NCBI GenBank assembly: GCA_002011475.1
Contig: MTNP01000044.1
Coordinates: forward strand, 1-43,872
Origin: Dehalococcoides sp. JdFR-54
GTDB lineage: Bacteria > Chloroflexota > Dehalococcoidia > JdFR-54
DNA length: 43,872 bases
Reading direction: 5' to 3'
Shown here: one piece after another, positions 4,713 to 14,587 of the stretch
Numbering within the stretch: the first letter of the stretch is position 1
Layout: each line of letters begins with the position of its first letter
Program-made: the position numbers and the translations under genes
The notes under the pieces: model-generated
The model's input: only the letters and a program-made list of their open reading frames with translations
Told to the model about the DNA's origin: nothing
Database searches by the model: none

Positions 4713-6185
4713 TTAGGGCTGGCTGGGCTGTAGCTCTCCCCAGCTCAGGCCGTACTTGGCCAGCAGGGTCTGGAGGCTGCTTTCAGCCTGCCTTCTCAAT
4801 TCATTGCTGGCCTTTCTCTGGTGCTCATAGGCTTCAAAGGATGCGGGATCGAAGGGCCTCCAGGTGTCCCGCAGCTTTCGCAGCGCCAGCTCTTCTTTCT
4901 CGGCTGCCTTCACCACCGTCTCAGCTATGGGCAAAACTAGCTCCGGATGAGGCAGGGCTCTGGCTTTGCTCACCACACCCTGGAAGCGCAACAGTAGCTG
5001 GGTTAACGTCTGAATCATCTTTTCTCGTTCGCAGCTGCCGTCCCTTAGCCTCCAGGCATTATAGTCAGAATGGAAGGCGTCCCATCGCTGCGCGATTTGG
5101 GCGTGGGCCTGGGCGAAGTCCAGAGCTTCCTGGGACGGCGGAGCAGCCAGGTCGGCTACCTTGCCCTCCACCTCACGGCGCAGCCTCTCCACCTCAGCCC
5201 TGACCTGCTCGAAGGCCTCAAAGGGCGCGGAATCCCCAGGCTGCCAGGAATCCCGCAACTGAAGCAGGGCCGCCTCCTCCTTCTCTATGGCCTCCACCAG
5301 AGAGGCCCACACCGCCCGCACCGGCTGGGGGTGAGCCATTGCTTTCGCCTGGGCAGCCAGCTCCCAGAATTGGCTCACCAGTTGGGTCAGTTCCCCATCC
5401 AGTTGGGTCAGTTCCTCGTCCAGTTGCGTCGGTTCTCCATTCACTTGCTCCGGTTGCTCCTCCTTCGGGCGGAAGGAACTGGCCTTTAGCCTCCAGGCAT
5501 TATAGTCAGAATGGAAGGCATCCCACCGCTGCGCGATTTGAGCGTGGGCCCGGGCGAAGTCCAGAGCTTCCTGGGACGGCGGAGCAGCCAGGTCGGCTAC
5601 CTTGCCCTCCACCTCACGGCGCAGCCCCTCCACCTCAGCCCTGACCTGCTCGAAGGCCTCGAAGGGCGCAAAATCCCCAGGCTGCCAGGAATCCCGCAGC
5701 TCAAGCAGGGCCACCTCCTCCTTCTCTATGGCCTCCACCAAAGACATCCACACCGCCCGCACCGGCTGGGGATGAGCCATTGCTTTCGCCTGGGCAGCCA
5801 GCTCCCGAAACTGGGTAACAAAATGGCTCAGGTCTTTCTCCATAACCTCTTTGCTACAAGTATCCCCCAGCCGAAAAGTGTCATAGTCTCTGTGGAAGGC
5901 GTCCCATTCTTCGACCAGAGCCAAGTAGGCCTGGGCGAACTCCTGGACAATGGCCCGGTCTATTTGCGGCGTCACGGCAGCCGGTGTGGGGGATGGCGCT
6001 ATAGCCTGCCTGGCACGGAGAATCTCGGCTACCCTGGCTTCCACCATGGCTTCTATGTCCGGGGTGGGGACGGGGGTAACTATGGGGGGTGGCACGGGGG
6101 TGGCCAAGCGATAACCACCGATCCCCACTAGCGCCCCCACCGCCAGCGCCCCCACTATGACAAAAATAAGTAACCCTCGAGCCAT
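4713..6185 (-). CDS. Membrane-anchored helical protein with three internal repeats
   Basis: A 490-residue protein I do not recognise. It has one N-terminal membrane segment (about 4-25), then a Pro/Thr-rich linker with VPTPD and SPTPAAV, and three copies of a 130-150 residue alpha-helical unit. Each unit runs EWDAFHxDYxxxRL, then FxELAAQAKAMAHPQPVRAVW, EAIEKEExALLxLRDSWQPGD, FEAFEQVRAEVExLRREVEGKVADLAAP. The last copy has diverged most. The second carries an inserted run of seven-residue units (ELTQLDG type). The predicted topology places the helical repeats outside the membrane. It is followed by the secreted propeller protein and preceded by two other membrane proteins on the same strand. 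Function unknown. Confidence 0.7.
   Translation of the reverse strand: MARGLLIFVIVGALAVGALVGIGGYRLATPVPPPIVTPVPTPDIEAMVEARVAEILRARQAIAPSPTPAAVTPQIDRAIVQEFAQAYLALVEEWDAFHRDYDTFRLGDTCSKEVMEKDLSHFVTQFRELAAQAKAMAHPQPVRAVWMSLVEAIEKEEVALLELRDSWQPGDFAPFEAFEQVRAEVEGLRREVEGKVADLAAPPSQEALDFARAHAQIAQRWDAFHSDYNAWRLKASSFRPKEEQPEQVNGEPTQLDEELTQLDGELTQLVSQFWELAAQAKAMAHPQPVRAVWASLVEAIEKEEAALLQLRDSWQPGDSAPFEAFEQVRAEVERLRREVEGKVADLAAPPSQEALDFAQAHAQIAQRWDAFHSDYNAWRLRDGSCEREKMIQTLTQLLLRFQGVVSKARALPHPELVLPIAETVVKAAEKEELALRKLRDTWRPFDPASFEAYEHQRKASNELRRQAESSLQTLLAKYGLSWGELQPSQP
5048..5816 (-). repeat. Direct repeat, 441-base period, inside the repeat protein gene
   Basis: Bases 5048-5375 match 5489-5816 at a constant offset of 441 bases (147 codons) with no length change; by eye about 16 differences, roughly 95% identity. 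The repeat encodes two of the three helical units. Between the copies, about 5380-5450, lies a shorter imperfect tandem repeat with a 21-base unit encoding seven residues. Confidence 0.85.
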
Positions 6186-8485: not shown

Positions 8486-9190
8486 TCAAGCCCTGCCCAG
8501 TCCCACGTTCGTTTTGCCCCTGGTGCTGACCTGCCAGCCCCCTTCGGAAAGCAATTCCAGGGCCGGGATGGTCCCATCCTCCCTACACCGGGATATCACG
8601 CCAACACTGAAGACGGTATCTACCTCCCGGGCAACTTGCTTCAGCGCATCCAATGCCTCCAACAACTTGCCCTCAGGTACCTTGGACTCGATTACGGCTG
8701 AGGCCACGACTTCGCCTTTTACATCGTCTCTGATGGTCCCCTTGGAAGCGTCCGTCATCAGAAAGGTCACCGGGTTCTTTTCCTCGAATTTTACACCCAC
8801 CTTGGCCAAGGCTACGCAAATCCTCTCGATTTCGCGAAAGCTGGTGCCTACATTGGGCCGTCCCACGTCAACCGCCAGGCCATACTCCCCGAGACCATAG
8901 CGCTGGGTGACGTCGTTAGTCTTCATCTCCTCAGTCCCCCGGCCACTAACCCCTGTCTCCCGGAAGGTGGTCAAGGGATCACTTAAAATGCTTCTGATGG
9001 ATCGGGGCCAGGGTAACTCCTCAGCCGGGACGAAGGCCTCAACCTTGCATACCCCGACCCGGCGGCAAAGGGCACACTCAAAACATTTGGATTCGTCAAT
9101 GGTTGCCTTCTTGTCTTCGATGAAGATAGCCCGAGCCGGGCAATATTGGACACAGAGTCGACAGCCCGTACAGCGCGAAGGGTCAATTCT
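8486..9190 (-). CDS. Two-cluster ferredoxin-domain protein with unassigned C-terminal domain
   Basis: About 234 residues. The first 50 hold a ferredoxin with two cysteine sets: C8-C11-C14-C18 (CX2CX2CX3CP) and C37-C40-C43-C49 (CX2CX2CX5C). The rest is a separate domain beginning SGRGTEEMKTNDVT, then LAVDVGRPNVGTSFREIERI and a mostly beta/alpha pattern. I have an impression of similarity to the N-terminal part of 6-hydroxynicotinate reductase-type proteins, but this is uncertain. The start is a GTG at 9190 (VRIDPSRC) with GGGGAGG upstream; it overlaps the preceding stop by eight bases, so translation is coupled. The longer upstream reading would be non-ferredoxin sequence. Role probably electron transfer for the cassette's other two proteins. 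Confidence 0.65.
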   Translation of the reverse strand, partial: RIDPSRCTGCRLCVQYCPARAIFIEDKKATIDESKCFECALCRRVGVCKVEAFVPAEELPWPRSIRSILSDPLTTFRETGVSGRGTEEMKTNDVTQRYGLGEYGLAVDVGRPNVGTSFREIERICVALAKVGVKFEEKNPVTFLMTDASKGTIRDDVKGEVVASAVIESKVPEGKLLEALDALKQVAREVDTVFSVGVISRCREDGTIPALELLSEGGWQVSTRGKTNVGLGRA

Positions 9191-9842
9191 CACGGCGCTG
9201 CCTCCCCTTTGTAGACTTGGCACACATATCAGCGATAATATCTGCGGCTGTCGCTGGATTAAAGATGCCACAGGTGCAAGGCCTCGCCAGCGCAATGGCT
9301 GCTTGCTCTGGGGTCAGCCTACCCCGGGCCACCCGAGCCACCGTATTCCGTACCAAATCCGGAGTGACCATACCATGCCCACACATACAGGTGATCTCCA
9401 AAACCTTGGGGTCGGGGAGCAGCTCCGTCTTGCCGAAGATGCCCAGAGAGAGGTGCACGCTGTTCGGCTTGAGGCCCACCTCTTTTAGTAGCTTGAAGAC
9501 CTCCTCGAACTCGCCGCTTACAATCACAGACATTCCCAGGTCGGCCCCTTTCAGATCGGCCAGGGTGTCGCGGACCTTTCGGGCATCGTCATAAACTGCG
9601 CCCATATAGGCTCCATCACCAGCGGCAGCCAGGATTTCTTCCACAGTTCTTCCGCTGAGCACGCCGCCCTGGCCATCGTCGGCTATATTGACGGGCTCGT
9701 GCTTCAACATGATCTTAAAAACTTCTTTGAGTTTCTGGGCAGCCCCAGAACTATTGAATCCCTGGGCAGCCATCGACAGCATCACAAAGTCCTTGTGCCT
9801 GGTGGGCGTGCTTCTCCGATGAAGCGTATGGGTCACTGCCAT
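9183..9842 (-). CDS. Unrecognised protein with CxCGHG and CTCG cysteine motifs
   Basis: About 219 residues; I do not recognise the family. Its first half reads DFVMLSMAAQGFN then KLKEVFKIMLKHEPVNIADDGQGG. Four cysteines sit in two short motifs toward the end, ITCMCGHGM and RPCTCGIFNPATAADI, which look like a metal or Fe-S site. No signal peptide or membrane segment is seen. It lies between the M29/NicX-like gene (35 bases upstream) and the ferredoxin-domain gene (8-base overlap), so it is almost certainly in the same pathway. The start is ambiguous: GTG 9845, ATG 9842 or GTG 9836 (the last has the best spacing to GAGGGG). Confidence 0.6.
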   Translation of the reverse strand: MAVTHTLHRRSTPTRHKDFVMLSMAAQGFNSSGAAQKLKEVFKIMLKHEPVNIADDGQGGVLSGRTVEEILAAAGDGAYMGAVYDDARKVRDTLADLKGADLGMSVIVSGEFEEVFKLLKEVGLKPNSVHLSLGIFGKTELLPDPKVLEITCMCGHGMVTPDLVRNTVARVARGRLTPEQAAIALARPCTCGIFNPATAADIIADMCAKSTKGRQRREN

Positions 9843-9877
9843 CACCCCCTCAGTTTTTCCGACCTCTTGCCAGATCT

Positions 9878-10855
9878 TTAGTCCATATCGAGCTTCAGTT
9901 CCCCTTGGTGAATCACTGCCTCGCCATCCAGCTCCAGGGTGGGATTCATCACTACCATATCGTAGTGCCCGGCCGCTACCACCCGACCTCCCATATAAGC
10001 ATTAGTGCCGAGCGCCACATGAATTGAGCCTGCCACCCCCTCATCGCTCAACATACTGTTCTCCAGCTTGCATTTTGGGTTCATACCGATGCCCAGTTCG
10101 GCCACGTTATAGATTTCCTTATCGTTCAGGCTGGCCAGCAGTTCCCGGAAGGCGCGGGCTATCCTGCCCTCGCCCTCGATATTGACGGCATAGCCATGGG
10201 CAAATGTTACCTTTACGGGCTCATCCACCAATCCCACACCGGGAATGCTGCCATCACATATGAGAACCCCGTTCCCGGTCCCCTCTACCGGGGCGATACT
10301 GGCTTCCAGGCAGTGAGCCGCAGCCACGTGCTCTGTATTGGCGAACCCGGTGAGGGCCCTGCCCCGCCGCCCCTCCAGGGATACGGTGAAATCGGTTCCC
10401 AGCCTGGAGGTGAGATGGGCCGTCCCGGCCTTGGTTAGTAGCTCTGCCAACCTCTCTATCTTCGGCCTGATAGCAACGAAGTCCGCTGACAAACCTTCGT
10501 GGAGCAGGATGTCATCATCGGCCTCAGGGAGAATGGTTACCCTGGCCCCTGCCCTCTGGGCTTCGAACCGGGCTTTGGTATGGGAGATATTAAACCTCGT
10601 GGGGGCGATAATGGCATCGGCCTCTTTCATAGCACTGGCTACTATAGCGGGCAGCTCTTCGCCATGTACCCTGGCGGGCGGCATGGCCAGGAGGAAAGGT
10701 CGAGCCTCGGCGAACTCGATGGCAGAGCAAAGGACCTTGCCAACCTGCACAGTGCCGTAATCACAAAGGACCAACACCTTCTCTCCCGGCTTGACGCCCG
10801 TTAACGTCTGCACAATGGTTCTTGCTCCCTTCAGCATAAGTATGTCCCTGGTCAT
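9878..10855 (-). CDS. M29 aminopeptidase / NicX-like metal-dependent protein
   Basis: About 325 residues with the fold signature shared by M29 aminopeptidases and 2,5-dihydroxypyridine 5,6-dioxygenase (NicX). Early VKPGEKVLVLCDY is typical of both. The metal-binding C-terminal half shows NVAELGIGMNP, SMLSDEGVAGSIHVALG and AGHYDMVVMNP, giving candidate ligands Glu, Glu, His, His and Asp. The start is the ATG at 10855, with AAGGAGGTG 7 bases before; a longer frame from 10960 lacks any ribosome site and runs across the promoter. It is the first gene of a three-gene minus-strand unit. Peptidase and ring-opening dioxygenase cannot be separated from sequence alone. Confidence 0.72.
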   Translation of the reverse strand: MTRDILMLKGARTIVQTLTGVKPGEKVLVLCDYGTVQVGKVLCSAIEFAEARPFLLAMPPARVHGEELPAIVASAMKEADAIIAPTRFNISHTKARFEAQRAGARVTILPEADDDILLHEGLSADFVAIRPKIERLAELLTKAGTAHLTSRLGTDFTVSLEGRRGRALTGFANTEHVAAAHCLEASIAPVEGTGNGVLICDGSIPGVGLVDEPVKVTFAHGYAVNIEGEGRIARAFRELLASLNDKEIYNVAELGIGMNPKCKLENSMLSDEGVAGSIHVALGTNAYMGGRVVAAGHYDMVVMNPTLELDGEAVIHQGELKLDMD

Positions 10856-11404: not shown

Positions 11405-11458
11405 AGATCGAAGGTGACTCGGGAGGTTTTCAAAAATACTGCATTTAAGGAGGGGACG

Positions 11459-12354
11459 ATGAAGAAACTCGGTTTTATCGGCTGTGGCACCATGGGCAAA
11501 CCCATGGCTTTGAATTTGATCAAGGCTGGATATTCCATCACAGCCTACGACCTCAATCCCGAGCCCGTAAAGGAATTGGAAGCCGCCGGCGCTACCGCCT
11601 CCCAGTCCCCGCGCGAGGTGGCGGAACAGGCCAACATCATAATTACCATGCTGCCGTCTTCGCCCGATGTGGAGCAGGTATTGTGCGGCCCCCGGGGCAT
11701 ACTGGAGAATCCGCAGAGGGGCACCATTATAATTGATATGACGACTGGCGACCCCATGGTCAGCCGGAGGTTGGCCGCTTTGGCTGCCGAAAGGGGCTAG
11801 ACATGCTGGACGCCCCGGTTACCGGGGGCCAAAGGGGGGCAATAGCTGGCACCCTCACCATTATGGTGGGAGGCAAACAAGAGACATTCGAGCGGTGCAA
11901 AGACATCTTGCAGGCAATGGGGCAGAACATTGTCTATGTCGGCGAGAGCGGGATGGGGGCTGCCGTCAAGCTCACCAACCAGATAATAGTGGGGATAACC
12001 GTGCTTGCTATCGCCGAAAGCGTTATCTTCGGGGCAAAATTGGGTATCGACCCCAAGATCCAATTCCAGGTTCTGAGTACGGGCGTAGCCAGGAGCTTCA
12101 TACTGGAGAACCTTTATCCCAGCCCCGGCATTGTGCCCCATAGCCCTGCAAGTCACGACTTTGCCCCTGGTTTCATGACCTCCCTGATGAGTAAAGATAT
12201 GGGTCTCATCATGTCTGCCGCCAATGAACTGAAGGCGCCATTAATGATGTGCAGCCTGGCCCATCAACTCTATGAGGCAGCCTGTGCTGGCGGCTTGGGG
12301 CAAAAGGACATGTCATCGGTGATCAATCTCCTTCGGCGGCTAAGTGGCGATTAG
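11459..12354 (+). pseudogene. 3-hydroxyisobutyrate dehydrogenase / tartronate semialdehyde reductase family, frameshifted
   Basis: NAD(P)-dependent beta-hydroxyacid dehydrogenase family. The ATG at 11459 follows AAGGAGGGG and opens with FIGCGTMGKPMALNLIKAGY, the Rossmann motif. Frame 1 stops at TAG 11798-11800 just after AAERG. The family's next motif, DMLDAPVTGGQRGAIAGTL, continues at once in another frame from 11800 and runs to 12354, including GAAVKLTNQ with the conserved catalytic lysine and the all-alpha C-terminal domain. One missing base near 11791-11800 explains everything. Without it the protein would be about 298 residues, the normal length. The break falls within the nucleotide-binding domain, so two working halves are unlikely; an assembly error is the main alternative. 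Confidence 0.8.
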
Positions 12355-12421
12355 CGGAGAAGCGACACAAACCTCAGATGAGGTCTCCTCTAAACAGTTC
12401 GGCACCGATGTGGGGTCAGGA

Positions 12422-12724
12422 ATGATAGAAGTTACGGTTGAAATCGTCTCCTGGCTGAAGGATGCGTTCGATAAGAAGGGGCCGGGCAGGCTCATTCTGC
12501 ACGAGGCCATCGCCCCGGGCACCTCCATCATGGATTTGATTCAACTTATGGCCGACAAATACCCGAAGTTCGCCAAGGAAGCCCTTGACGACCGAAAACA
12601 GGAGCTGAGTGGCAGCATCGCCGTGATCTTGAACGGAAGCTTTGTGTCATCCCTGGCCGAACTGAATACGGGGCTGAAAGAGGGGGATATCGTAACTTTT
12701 CTGCCCGCCTTCTCGGGGGGATGA
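12422..12724 (+). CDS. MoaD/ThiS-like sulfur carrier protein
   Basis: A 100-residue ubiquitin-fold protein ending in the required Gly-Gly (FLPAFSGG). The pattern VEIVSWLKDAF at the start, SIMDLIQLMADKYP and the LNGSFVSSLAELNTGLKEGDIVTFLPAFSGG ending (read in segments) matches MoaD-like proteins that carry a C-terminal thiocarboxylate for pterin dithiolene formation. It stops 12 bases before the AOR gene, so the natural inference is that it serves assembly or supply of the tungstopterin/molybdopterin cofactor of that enzyme. The ATG at 12422 is chosen; in-frame upstream sequence to 12344 shows no family similarity. Confidence 0.82.
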   Translation: MIEVTVEIVSWLKDAFDKKGPGRLILHEAIAPGTSIMDLIQLMADKYPKFAKEALDDRKQELSGSIAVILNGSFVSSLAELNTGLKEGDIVTFLPAFSGG

Positions 12725-12736
12725 AAGGAGGAGAAT

Positions 12737-14587
12737 ATGGGCGCGAAGCTGTATGGGGCTACAGGCAAGGTCTTGAGGGTTGACCTCAGCCAGGGACGGA
12801 TATGGGAGGAGGTTTTGGACGAAGCCACCCTCCGCAAATACTTCGGTGGCACCTGCCTGGGGGTCAAGTACCTCTGCGATGAGGTGGACCCCAAGAGCGA
12901 TTGGTCAGACCCACAAAATCGCCTCTTCATCGGCTCCGGGCCTCTGGGCGGCACCAGGGTCCCTGGTTCGGGCACCATCTCCTTCGTGACCAAGGGGGCC
13001 CTGACCAATGCTGCCTCCTCCACCCAGGCCAACGGGTTTTTCGGGACCTTTTTGAAATTTTGCGGCTTCGATGCCGTCCTATTTCAGGGAGCCGCCCCCG
13101 ACTGGAAATACCTATATATTCACAATGGTGTGGCTGAACTGAGGGATGCCAGGCATCTCCTGGGTCAGGATACCTGGCAGACCGAGGAATCCATCAAGGG
13201 TGAGCTGGGCTATACCGAAAGGAATATGAGCGTCTTCAGCATCGGGCCCGCTGGAGAGAATCTGGTCAAATTCGCCGGCATCATCGGGGATCGGGGGCAT
13301 GTGGCCGCCCATAATGGGGTGGGGGCGGTCATGGGCTCCAAGAAGCTCAAGGCCATCGCCGTCGCCCGGGGCAAGGGCAAGGTGGAGGTGGTGGATGATA
13401 AGCAGCTTACGGCCATAGCCAAACAATTGGTGGAGAGCGCCCGAACCGAGGCCGGGGTGGTTTTCCACTGGGGCACCAGCCGCGCCATATCCGTTGCCGA
13501 GCCTGCCGGCTGGCTGCCGGTAAAGAACTATACTACCAACGCCTTCCCGGAGCATGAGCTTTTCGTGGGCGACCGCGTCCGGGCCGTCTTCGAGACCAAG
13601 AGCTACCCCTGCTGGGCCTGCCCGTCCCATCACCGCGAGCTCATGAAGGTCACCGAAGGCCCGTATACGGGCTACTTCGGCAAAGAGCCCGAGTACGAGC
13701 AGTGGGCGGCCTGGGGCCCGCAAATCTATCAGAAGGACCCGGGAGCAGCGGTTATGCTCAGCAACGAAGTGGATCGCCTGGGGATGGACGCCAATGAAGC
13801 GAGCTGGGTGGTAGGTTGGGTTATGGAATGCTATGAGAAGGGCATCCTCACCCAGAAAGACCTGGATGGCCTGGAGATGACCTGGGGCAATGCCGATGCT
13901 ACCCTTGGCTTGCTCAAGAACATCGCCCATCGCCGTGGTTTTGGCAACCTGCTGGCCGAGGGGGTGAAATACGCCGCCGAAAAGGTGGGGGGCGAGGCCG
14001 TAAATATGGCCATCTGCACCGGTAAAGGCAACACGCCCAGGGGCCACGACCATCGCGGCAAGTGGTGGGAGATGCTGGATACCTGCGTTTCCAACACCGG
14101 GACACTGGAGACGCAGCTCTTATTCCTCGATCTGGGCATTTATGGGCTGCCCAAGCAGATCGACCCCTTCTCCTGGGAGCAAGTGTCGGCCGCCGTAGCC
14201 AAGACCAAGGGCGCTCTGCAGTTTGTAGATTCCCTGGTCACCTGCTGGTTCATCACCAGGGGTGACCTTCCCCTGCTGTGTCAGGCAGTGAAGGCAGCTA
14301 CCGGGTGGGATGTGGATTTCGAAGAGGCCCTCAGGGTAGGGCGCCGTGCCGTCAACTTGATGAGGTTTTTCAGCATCAAGCGGGGACTAACGCCAGACCT
14401 GGAGCAGCCATCCCATAGATACGCCTCCACACCGGTGGACGGGCCGGTGAAGGGCAGAACTATTTTGCCCCACTGGCAGCAGATGATAAGCAACTACTAT
14501 CAACTGATGGGCTGGGATAAGGAAACTGGATTGCCCCTCCCCGAAACGCTGAGGGAACTCGGGCTGGAGCATCTTATCGCCGACTAG
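12737..14587 (+). CDS. Aldehyde:ferredoxin oxidoreductase family protein (tungstopterin enzyme)
   Basis: A 616-residue AOR-family enzyme; members oxidise aldehydes to acids or act on aromatic acyl compounds, passing electrons to ferredoxin. The N-terminal domain shows GATGKVLRVDLSQG, FGGTCLGVKYL, GSGPLGGTRVPGSG and AHNGVGAVMGSKKLKAIAV (read in parts), typical pterin-binding motifs. The 4Fe-4S region is C292-x2-C295 followed by PSHH, then C450 in DTCVSNTG; the third usual Cys (+4 after C295) is His299. PRGHDHRG precedes C450. The ATG has AAAGGAGGAG upstream and lies 12 bases after the MoaD-like gene. Substrate is not determined; the closest type could be the branch including benzoyl-CoA-reductase-like BamB proteins, but this is a guess. 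Confidence 0.9.
   Translation: MGAKLYGATGKVLRVDLSQGRIWEEVLDEATLRKYFGGTCLGVKYLCDEVDPKSDWSDPQNRLFIGSGPLGGTRVPGSGTISFVTKGALTNAASSTQANGFFGTFLKFCGFDAVLFQGAAPDWKYLYIHNGVAELRDARHLLGQDTWQTEESIKGELGYTERNMSVFSIGPAGENLVKFAGIIGDRGHVAAHNGVGAVMGSKKLKAIAVARGKGKVEVVDDKQLTAIAKQLVESARTEAGVVFHWGTSRAISVAEPAGWLPVKNYTTNAFPEHELFVGDRVRAVFETKSYPCWACPSHHRELMKVTEGPYTGYFGKEPEYEQWAAWGPQIYQKDPGAAVMLSNEVDRLGMDANEASWVVGWVMECYEKGILTQKDLDGLEMTWGNADATLGLLKNIAHRRGFGNLLAEGVKYAAEKVGGEAVNMAICTGKGNTPRGHDHRGKWWEMLDTCVSNTGTLETQLLFLDLGIYGLPKQIDPFSWEQVSAAVAKTKGALQFVDSLVTCWFITRGDLPLLCQAVKAATGWDVDFEEALRVGRRAVNLMRFFSIKRGLTPDLEQPSHRYASTPVDGPVKGRTILPHWQQMISNYYQLMGWDKETGLPLPETLRELGLEHLIAD

Follow-up and report, generated by a model that had tools for sequence, protein, structure and literature searches.

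The window is a 43,872-nt stretch of contig MTNP01000044.1 from Dehalococcoides sp. JdFR-54. It includes three tightly packed genes on the minus strand, which we call A, B, and C (Table 1), and all three of these open reading frames, which were claimed in a first-pass annotation, are present. A and B are 35 nt apart. B and C share 11 bases at the start of C, and because a GGGGAGG site also lies 5' of that start, the proposal that these genes are translationally coupled is plausible for B and C. A was also said to have its own promoter. The promoter-like sequence is there, but it is weak: it is one of five matches of this type in the region, as compared to 1.9 ± 1.4 in shuffled sequences. We did not find a terminator between C and the next gene on the minus strand, so the transcription unit may extend into that gene. 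A search for RNA-family features in the locus gave none.

Table 1. Features of the window, with coordinates in the direction of the strand.
Feature	Coordinates	Strand	Description
Repeat-containing gene	4713-6185		Near-identical internal repeats; 490-aa protein, coiled-coil-like by eye
Next gene after C	8443-7526	minus	S49/SppA-like, named by eye
Gene C	9193-8486	minus	ORF with GTG start, 235 aa; N-terminal 2[4Fe-4S] ferredoxin with 8 invariant Cys, then a ~175-aa tail with a ferredoxin/ACT-like plait
Gene B	9842-9183	minus	ORF with ATG start, 219 aa; ferredoxin-like (plait) domain at the N terminus; invariant MCGH ... CxCG in a helical domain at the C terminus
Gene A	10855-9878	minus	ORF with ATG start, 325 aa; M29/NicX superfamily; dinuclear metal ligands of the M29 type (Glu, Glu, His, His-x-Asp)
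Promoter-like TTGACG-18-TATGCT	10909-10880	minus	Upstream of A; consensus match only, weak
3-hydroxyisobutyrate/tartronate-semialdehyde-type dehydrogenase	11414-12354	plus	NAD_binding_2, NAD_binding_11; frameshift near 11800
MoaD/ThiS-like protein	12344-12724	plus	Pfam ThiS; precedes AOR, as in L040 and L067
AOR	12737-14587	plus	Aldehyde:ferredoxin oxidoreductase; Pfam AFOR_N/AFOR_C; divergent from A-B-C

The solved protein that is most similar to A is NicX (PDB 7cn3; phmmer against PDB, E = 4e-7). NicX belongs to the same superfamily, is similar in length, and shares the His-x-Asp motif. Against Pfam's M29 family (PF02073), A scored 19.7 bits, which is under the curated cut-off of 27. In an alignment with canonical M29 proteins and NicX, the ligand motifs of A are Glu (LEASIAP), Glu (VAELGIG), His (GSIHVALG), and His-x-Asp (GHYDM), and all five M29 metal-ligand positions are kept. 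Some members of A's clade have Gln instead of the second Glu. In NicX, the first three M29 ligand positions are replaced, and His-x-Asp alone is retained. We take the ligands of the mononuclear iron in NicX to be His, His, and Asp, with the first His in the IGWG motif. Where NicX has this His (SHIGWG), A has Glu (AELGIG), and A has two more M29 ligands that NicX lacks. So the Glu, Glu, His, His-x-Asp ligands that had been noticed in A are present, but they are the M29 set and not the NicX set.

We also built a tree with 56 rows (the row L153_M29 is the wrong ORF, and L153_h is the M29 protein from that locus). The NicX sequences form their own clade, apart from A, with support of 100/100, and the canonical M29 peptidases form a separate long branch that excludes A. 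With M29-type ligands, and a branch separate from those of NicX and of canonical M29, A probably represents a third type of M29-superfamily protein, and nothing in these results indicates oxygenase chemistry. From the alignment and the tree, we rejected the idea that A is a NicX-like dioxygenase: of the M29/NicX-like label that A was first given, the NicX part does not fit its active site. Nor is A firmly placed among ordinary M29 peptidases: it matches the aminopeptidases AmpS and PepS (PF02073) at all five metal-ligand positions, but it is shorter, scores below the Pfam cut-off, and branches outside them. Instead, A groups with homologs from NC10 bacteria (L103 and L107) and from a haloarchaeon (L118), with support of 97/86. 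The homologs from NC10 adjoin C-B and a TTT transporter, and the haloarchaeal homolog adjoins genes for a TTT transporter and tricarballylate dehydrogenase. The haloarchaeal locus is on a plasmid, and within it (L118, 2189-6960), two A-like genes flank genes for a PrpF-like protein and the tricarballylate dehydrogenase TcuA, beside the TTT transporter. This arrangement suggests that A-type proteins act in carboxylate metabolism.

B contains the CMCGHG and CTCG motifs that had been pointed out, but we found no match for it in Pfam, NCBIfam, or PDB, and no relative in these databases among the known hydro-lyase families. Distant Pfam matches were scattered, and none were consistent. The predicted structure of B (pLDDT 90.4) has an alpha-beta plait domain first; MCGH and CxCG lie in the helical domain that comes after it. 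The structure has no match among PDB folds at E ≤ 1e-3; Foldseek gave weak matches to the PII-like protein SbtB, with E-values that are not significant. Across 84 sequences of B, the invariant residues are H8, R9, G137, M153, C154, G155, H156, C189, C191, and N195. C154, C189, and C191 are three potential cluster cysteines.

C matches Pfam's Fer4 (1.2e-9), and its residues 2-55 match bacterial 2[4Fe-4S] ferredoxins (such as 1fdn) in both sequence and fold. It contains two complete CxxCxxC...C-type motifs, whose eight cysteines are invariant in 75 sequences. Unlike these ferredoxins, C is not a ferredoxin domain only, as it has an additional conserved tail of ~175 amino acids. In the predicted structure (pLDDT 93), the ferredoxin is followed by a plait domain. 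The tail has no match in Pfam or NCBIfam, and no PDB fold matched it at E ≤ 0.001, so the description of C as a ferredoxin with a novel-looking tail stands. Besides the eight cysteines, the invariant residues of C in the 75 sequences are R64, S71, G84, R85, K91, G111, R112, P113, P141, K227, G231, and G233. With confident models for both proteins, no Pfam or NCBIfam match for B or for the tail of C, and no fold relative with known chemistry in the PDB search, both represent undescribed families. We considered whether B and C might be paralogs of each other via their plait domains, but there was no profile match.

Scanning genomes with the single sequence of B found nothing, and we then used a 17-row alignment as the query. 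This identified 194 relatives of B among 85,000 species genomes, of which 80 loci were fetched. The fetched loci are from Dehalococcoidia, Bacillota (Desulfosporosinus, Halanaerobium, and Hungatella), Thermodesulfobacteriota, NC10, Acidobacteria, Gemmatimonadota, Synergistaceae, and archaea from the Desulfurococcales/Sulfolobales. Across 94 non-redundant loci, C adjoins B on the same strand for 104 of 109 B genes. Three of the five exceptions are at contig ends, and two lack C. C is the first gene in 99 cases, so the B-C order in the window is unusual. The gaps between the two genes are mostly within ±40 nt, and in one genome (L003/L023) they are fused. Some genomes have several C-B pairs, up to seven, and paralogous pairs co-diverge: the true adjacency beat the swap in 31 of 33 tests, and the distances for B and C had a correlation of 0.81 over 96 pairs. 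The adjacency of B and C is more than chance: they are an unnamed pair of iron-sulfur proteins whose genes stay together in anaerobic bacteria and archaea.

The same is not true of A. When 400 genomes from the phylum were examined, 66 had a homolog of A, mostly away from B-C, and 7 carried B-C. We found A beside C-B, or within an operon-like run with it, at five loci (the window, L103, L107, L110, and L112). A is an optional neighbor of B-C, and there is no obligate three-gene unit. Of the co-occurrence that the first-pass annotation had implied, the B-C part is strong, while A is missing from nearly all B-C loci.

Several other arrangements of these genes are worth describing. In L025 (126-1367) and L030 (3742-5637), B and a CooF-like iron-sulfur domain with multiple clusters are parts of one fusion protein, which joins B directly to an electron-transfer protein. 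Some loci (L040, L042, L044, L049, L065, L102, L107, L110, and L112) contain at least two paralogous C-B pairs, which suggests that the pairs assemble into a heteromer or that each has its own, related reaction. We also considered whether the fused B-C protein might be 6-hydroxynicotinate reductase, whose length is presumably similar (about 490 amino acids). We rejected this idea: the fused protein had no matches on plasmids, despite many NicX-like genes on plasmids, and we found no literature to support it.

To see which genes C-B is associated with, we compared neighbors within 3.5 kb to those beyond 6 kb. The loci are related to each other, so the near/far counts do not have a strict null: 17/0 for CODH-like (CooS-like) proteins, 16/1 for FAD-NAD oxidoreductases, 15/1 for TctA, 13/1 for CooF-like proteins, 9/1 for AOR, 7/0 for LarA, 5/0 for TPP enzymes, 5/1 for 2-oxoacid:ferredoxin oxidoreductase, and 4/0 for DUF1116. 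Neighbors from clusters without a Pfam or NCBIfam scan were named by eye, so those names are inferences. Overall, C-B is found with TTT or TRAP carboxylate transporters, AOR, 2-oxoacid:ferredoxin oxidoreductase (Kor), LarA and sugar-acid genes, GlcD, or CooF/CODH-like/FAD-oxidoreductase genes. In L021, L046, L047, L054, and L099, C-B is with a transporter alone, which favors a catalytic role. In three loci (L026, 5261-14101; L027, 6333-15104; and L053), C-B is in a conserved cluster with an SDR, a dihydropyrimidinase-like gene, FdrA, DUF1116, and an M42 peptidase; L026 and L027 also have an alcohol dehydrogenase. A carbamoyl or N-compound (nitrogen-ring) pathway is possible for this cluster, from which A is absent. 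We searched the literature for NicX together with an anaerobic ferredoxin, and for AOR together with TTT in Dehalococcoidia, and neither search gave a result.

In Dehalococcoidia, AOR and MoaD are found directly upstream of C-B. In L067, L040, L044, and L049, an AOR lies directly upstream of C-B; the AOR in the window is 63-65% identical to these, and the window's MoaD is 54-56% identical, over 99 amino acids, to MoaD from L067 and L040. The window's AOR belongs to this AOR/C-B association. However, C-B is not a known subunit of AOR, and it is mostly found without AOR. The dehydrogenase in the window is split by a frameshift near 11794-11800; either the gene is broken or the sequencing may have introduced an error. 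In L078 (Synergistaceae), its homolog is a single ORF beside AOR and C-B, and there is an intact paralog in L170 (9970-10872). The genome that contains the window also has a second C-B pair, after a TRAP transporter (L021), and a second AOR, which lies after a TRAP permease and before the intact dehydrogenase (L170).

In many loci from Bacillota, C-B is flanked by genes for CooF-like proteins, short CODH-like proteins, and FAD-NAD oxidoreductases. This is similar to the CooF-CODH-FNOR clusters, and short CODH-like proteins (mini-CooS or clade G of Ni-CODH) are known from an earlier study (PMC8776680), but here C-B is inserted. The CODH-like proteins beside C-B (L081, 7677-9221; L035, 7445-8914; L102, 8613-10160; L106, 6147-8006; and 13 others) keep the N-terminal cluster motif. 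We compared four positions of the C-cluster ligands (H261, C333, C446, and C476 of CODH-II; the column for C295 was left out), and 14 of the 17 proteins lack all four. L106 keeps the His alone, and L035 and L102 keep the three Cys. A 2026 survey of gene context (PMC13056359) omitted clade G, and the passages that we searched do not mention a C-B partner. The CODH-like genes beside C-B may be miscounted as CO dehydrogenases; they should probably be left out when CO oxidation is tallied.

What might B-C do? Many of the invariant residues in B and C are charged or could bind metals, which suggests that an anion is bound in an active site. Our tentative proposal, which we favor without great confidence, is that B and C are two subunits of an undescribed iron-sulfur redox enzyme (or of its electron-transfer core) that acts on small anionic organic acids in anaerobes. 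C154, C189, and C191 of B, perhaps with His156, would hold a third metal center, to judge by their conservation. This would most likely be a [4Fe-4S] cluster whose open site is close to H8 and R9. R64, R85, K91, R112, and K227 of C could help to bind the acid at the interface of B and C, and the two clusters of C would exchange electrons with AOR, 2-oxoacid:ferredoxin oxidoreductase, or CooF/FAD-oxidoreductase. In the window, the likely partners are the adjacent AOR, MoaD, and hydroxyacid dehydrogenase. A is predicted to be an accessory M29-type metallohydrolase, which may release or open the substrate in a few loci.

Such diverse neighbors would also be expected if B-C were a sensor or a general electron carrier. 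B-C might be a dedicated carrier or adaptor, with C as the ferredoxin and B as a docking subunit that couples AOR, Kor, CODH-like proteins, and GlcD/HdrC to the electron pool. This is consistent with how strongly C-B associates with ferredoxin-dependent enzymes and with FAD-NAD oxidoreductases, and with the two complete [4Fe-4S] motifs in C. But several loci have C-B with a TTT or TRAP transporter only, and the conserved charged residues in the tail of C and the Cys/His set of B go beyond what docking needs, so we view an adaptor as possible but doubtful. As for a sensor of redox state and metabolites that controls the adjacent transporter or enzymes, combining PII/ACT-like folds with a ferredoxin, we think this is very unlikely. 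The putative catalytic residues are highly identical across unrelated substrates, and many pairs also have IclR, GntR, or two-component regulators nearby; the plait domains, the weak similarity of B to SbtB, and the presence of one pair per substrate locus would suit a sensor, but those Foldseek hits were not significant.

Aconitase and IlvD-type enzymes have three cluster cysteines, and B has three that are invariant. If B-C were an iron-sulfur lyase or dehydratase for hydroxy acids, then the three-Cys [4Fe-4S] cluster would bind the hydroxyl group, and C would stabilize or re-reduce the cluster. Some loci do include UxaA, LarA, aldolase, glycerate kinase, or four-carbon acid sugar kinase (named by eye). 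However, B-C has no similarity in sequence or fold to the known dehydratases, which to our knowledge do not need a ferredoxin subunit, and the CODH-like and Kor contexts are redox contexts, so a lyase seems unlikely. Still less can be said for the idea in the first-pass annotation that A, B, and C form a route by which an N-heterocycle is reduced or its ring is cleaved, based on NicX-like chemistry. NicX is the best PDB match of A, and a few C-B loci do have dihydropyrimidinase-like, FdrA, and DUF1116 genes. But A has the full M29 ligand set without the distinctive iron-binding His of NicX, NicX is elsewhere in the tree, A is missing from most C-B loci, and the neighborhoods point to organic-acid catabolism (TTT, TRAP, AOR, Kor, LarA, and GlcD), with no recognized pyridine-degradation genes near C-B. 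We consider the heterocycle route highly improbable.

Returning to the redox enzyme, a more specific version is that B-C represents a heterodimeric iron-sulfur enzyme of a new class, in which a third, three-Cys cluster in B is wired via the two clusters of C, and which performs a common redox step on many organic acids in anaerobes. In the CODH-like clusters, B-C would supply an active site in place of the one missing from the degenerate CODH subunit. This is speculative and, in our judgment, somewhat unlikely. In any case, a strictly paired, multi-copy module that has no match in Pfam, NCBIfam, or known folds lies amid operons for the breakdown of organic acids. If B-C is an enzyme, then a central catabolic step of many uncultured anaerobes is now invisible to annotation.
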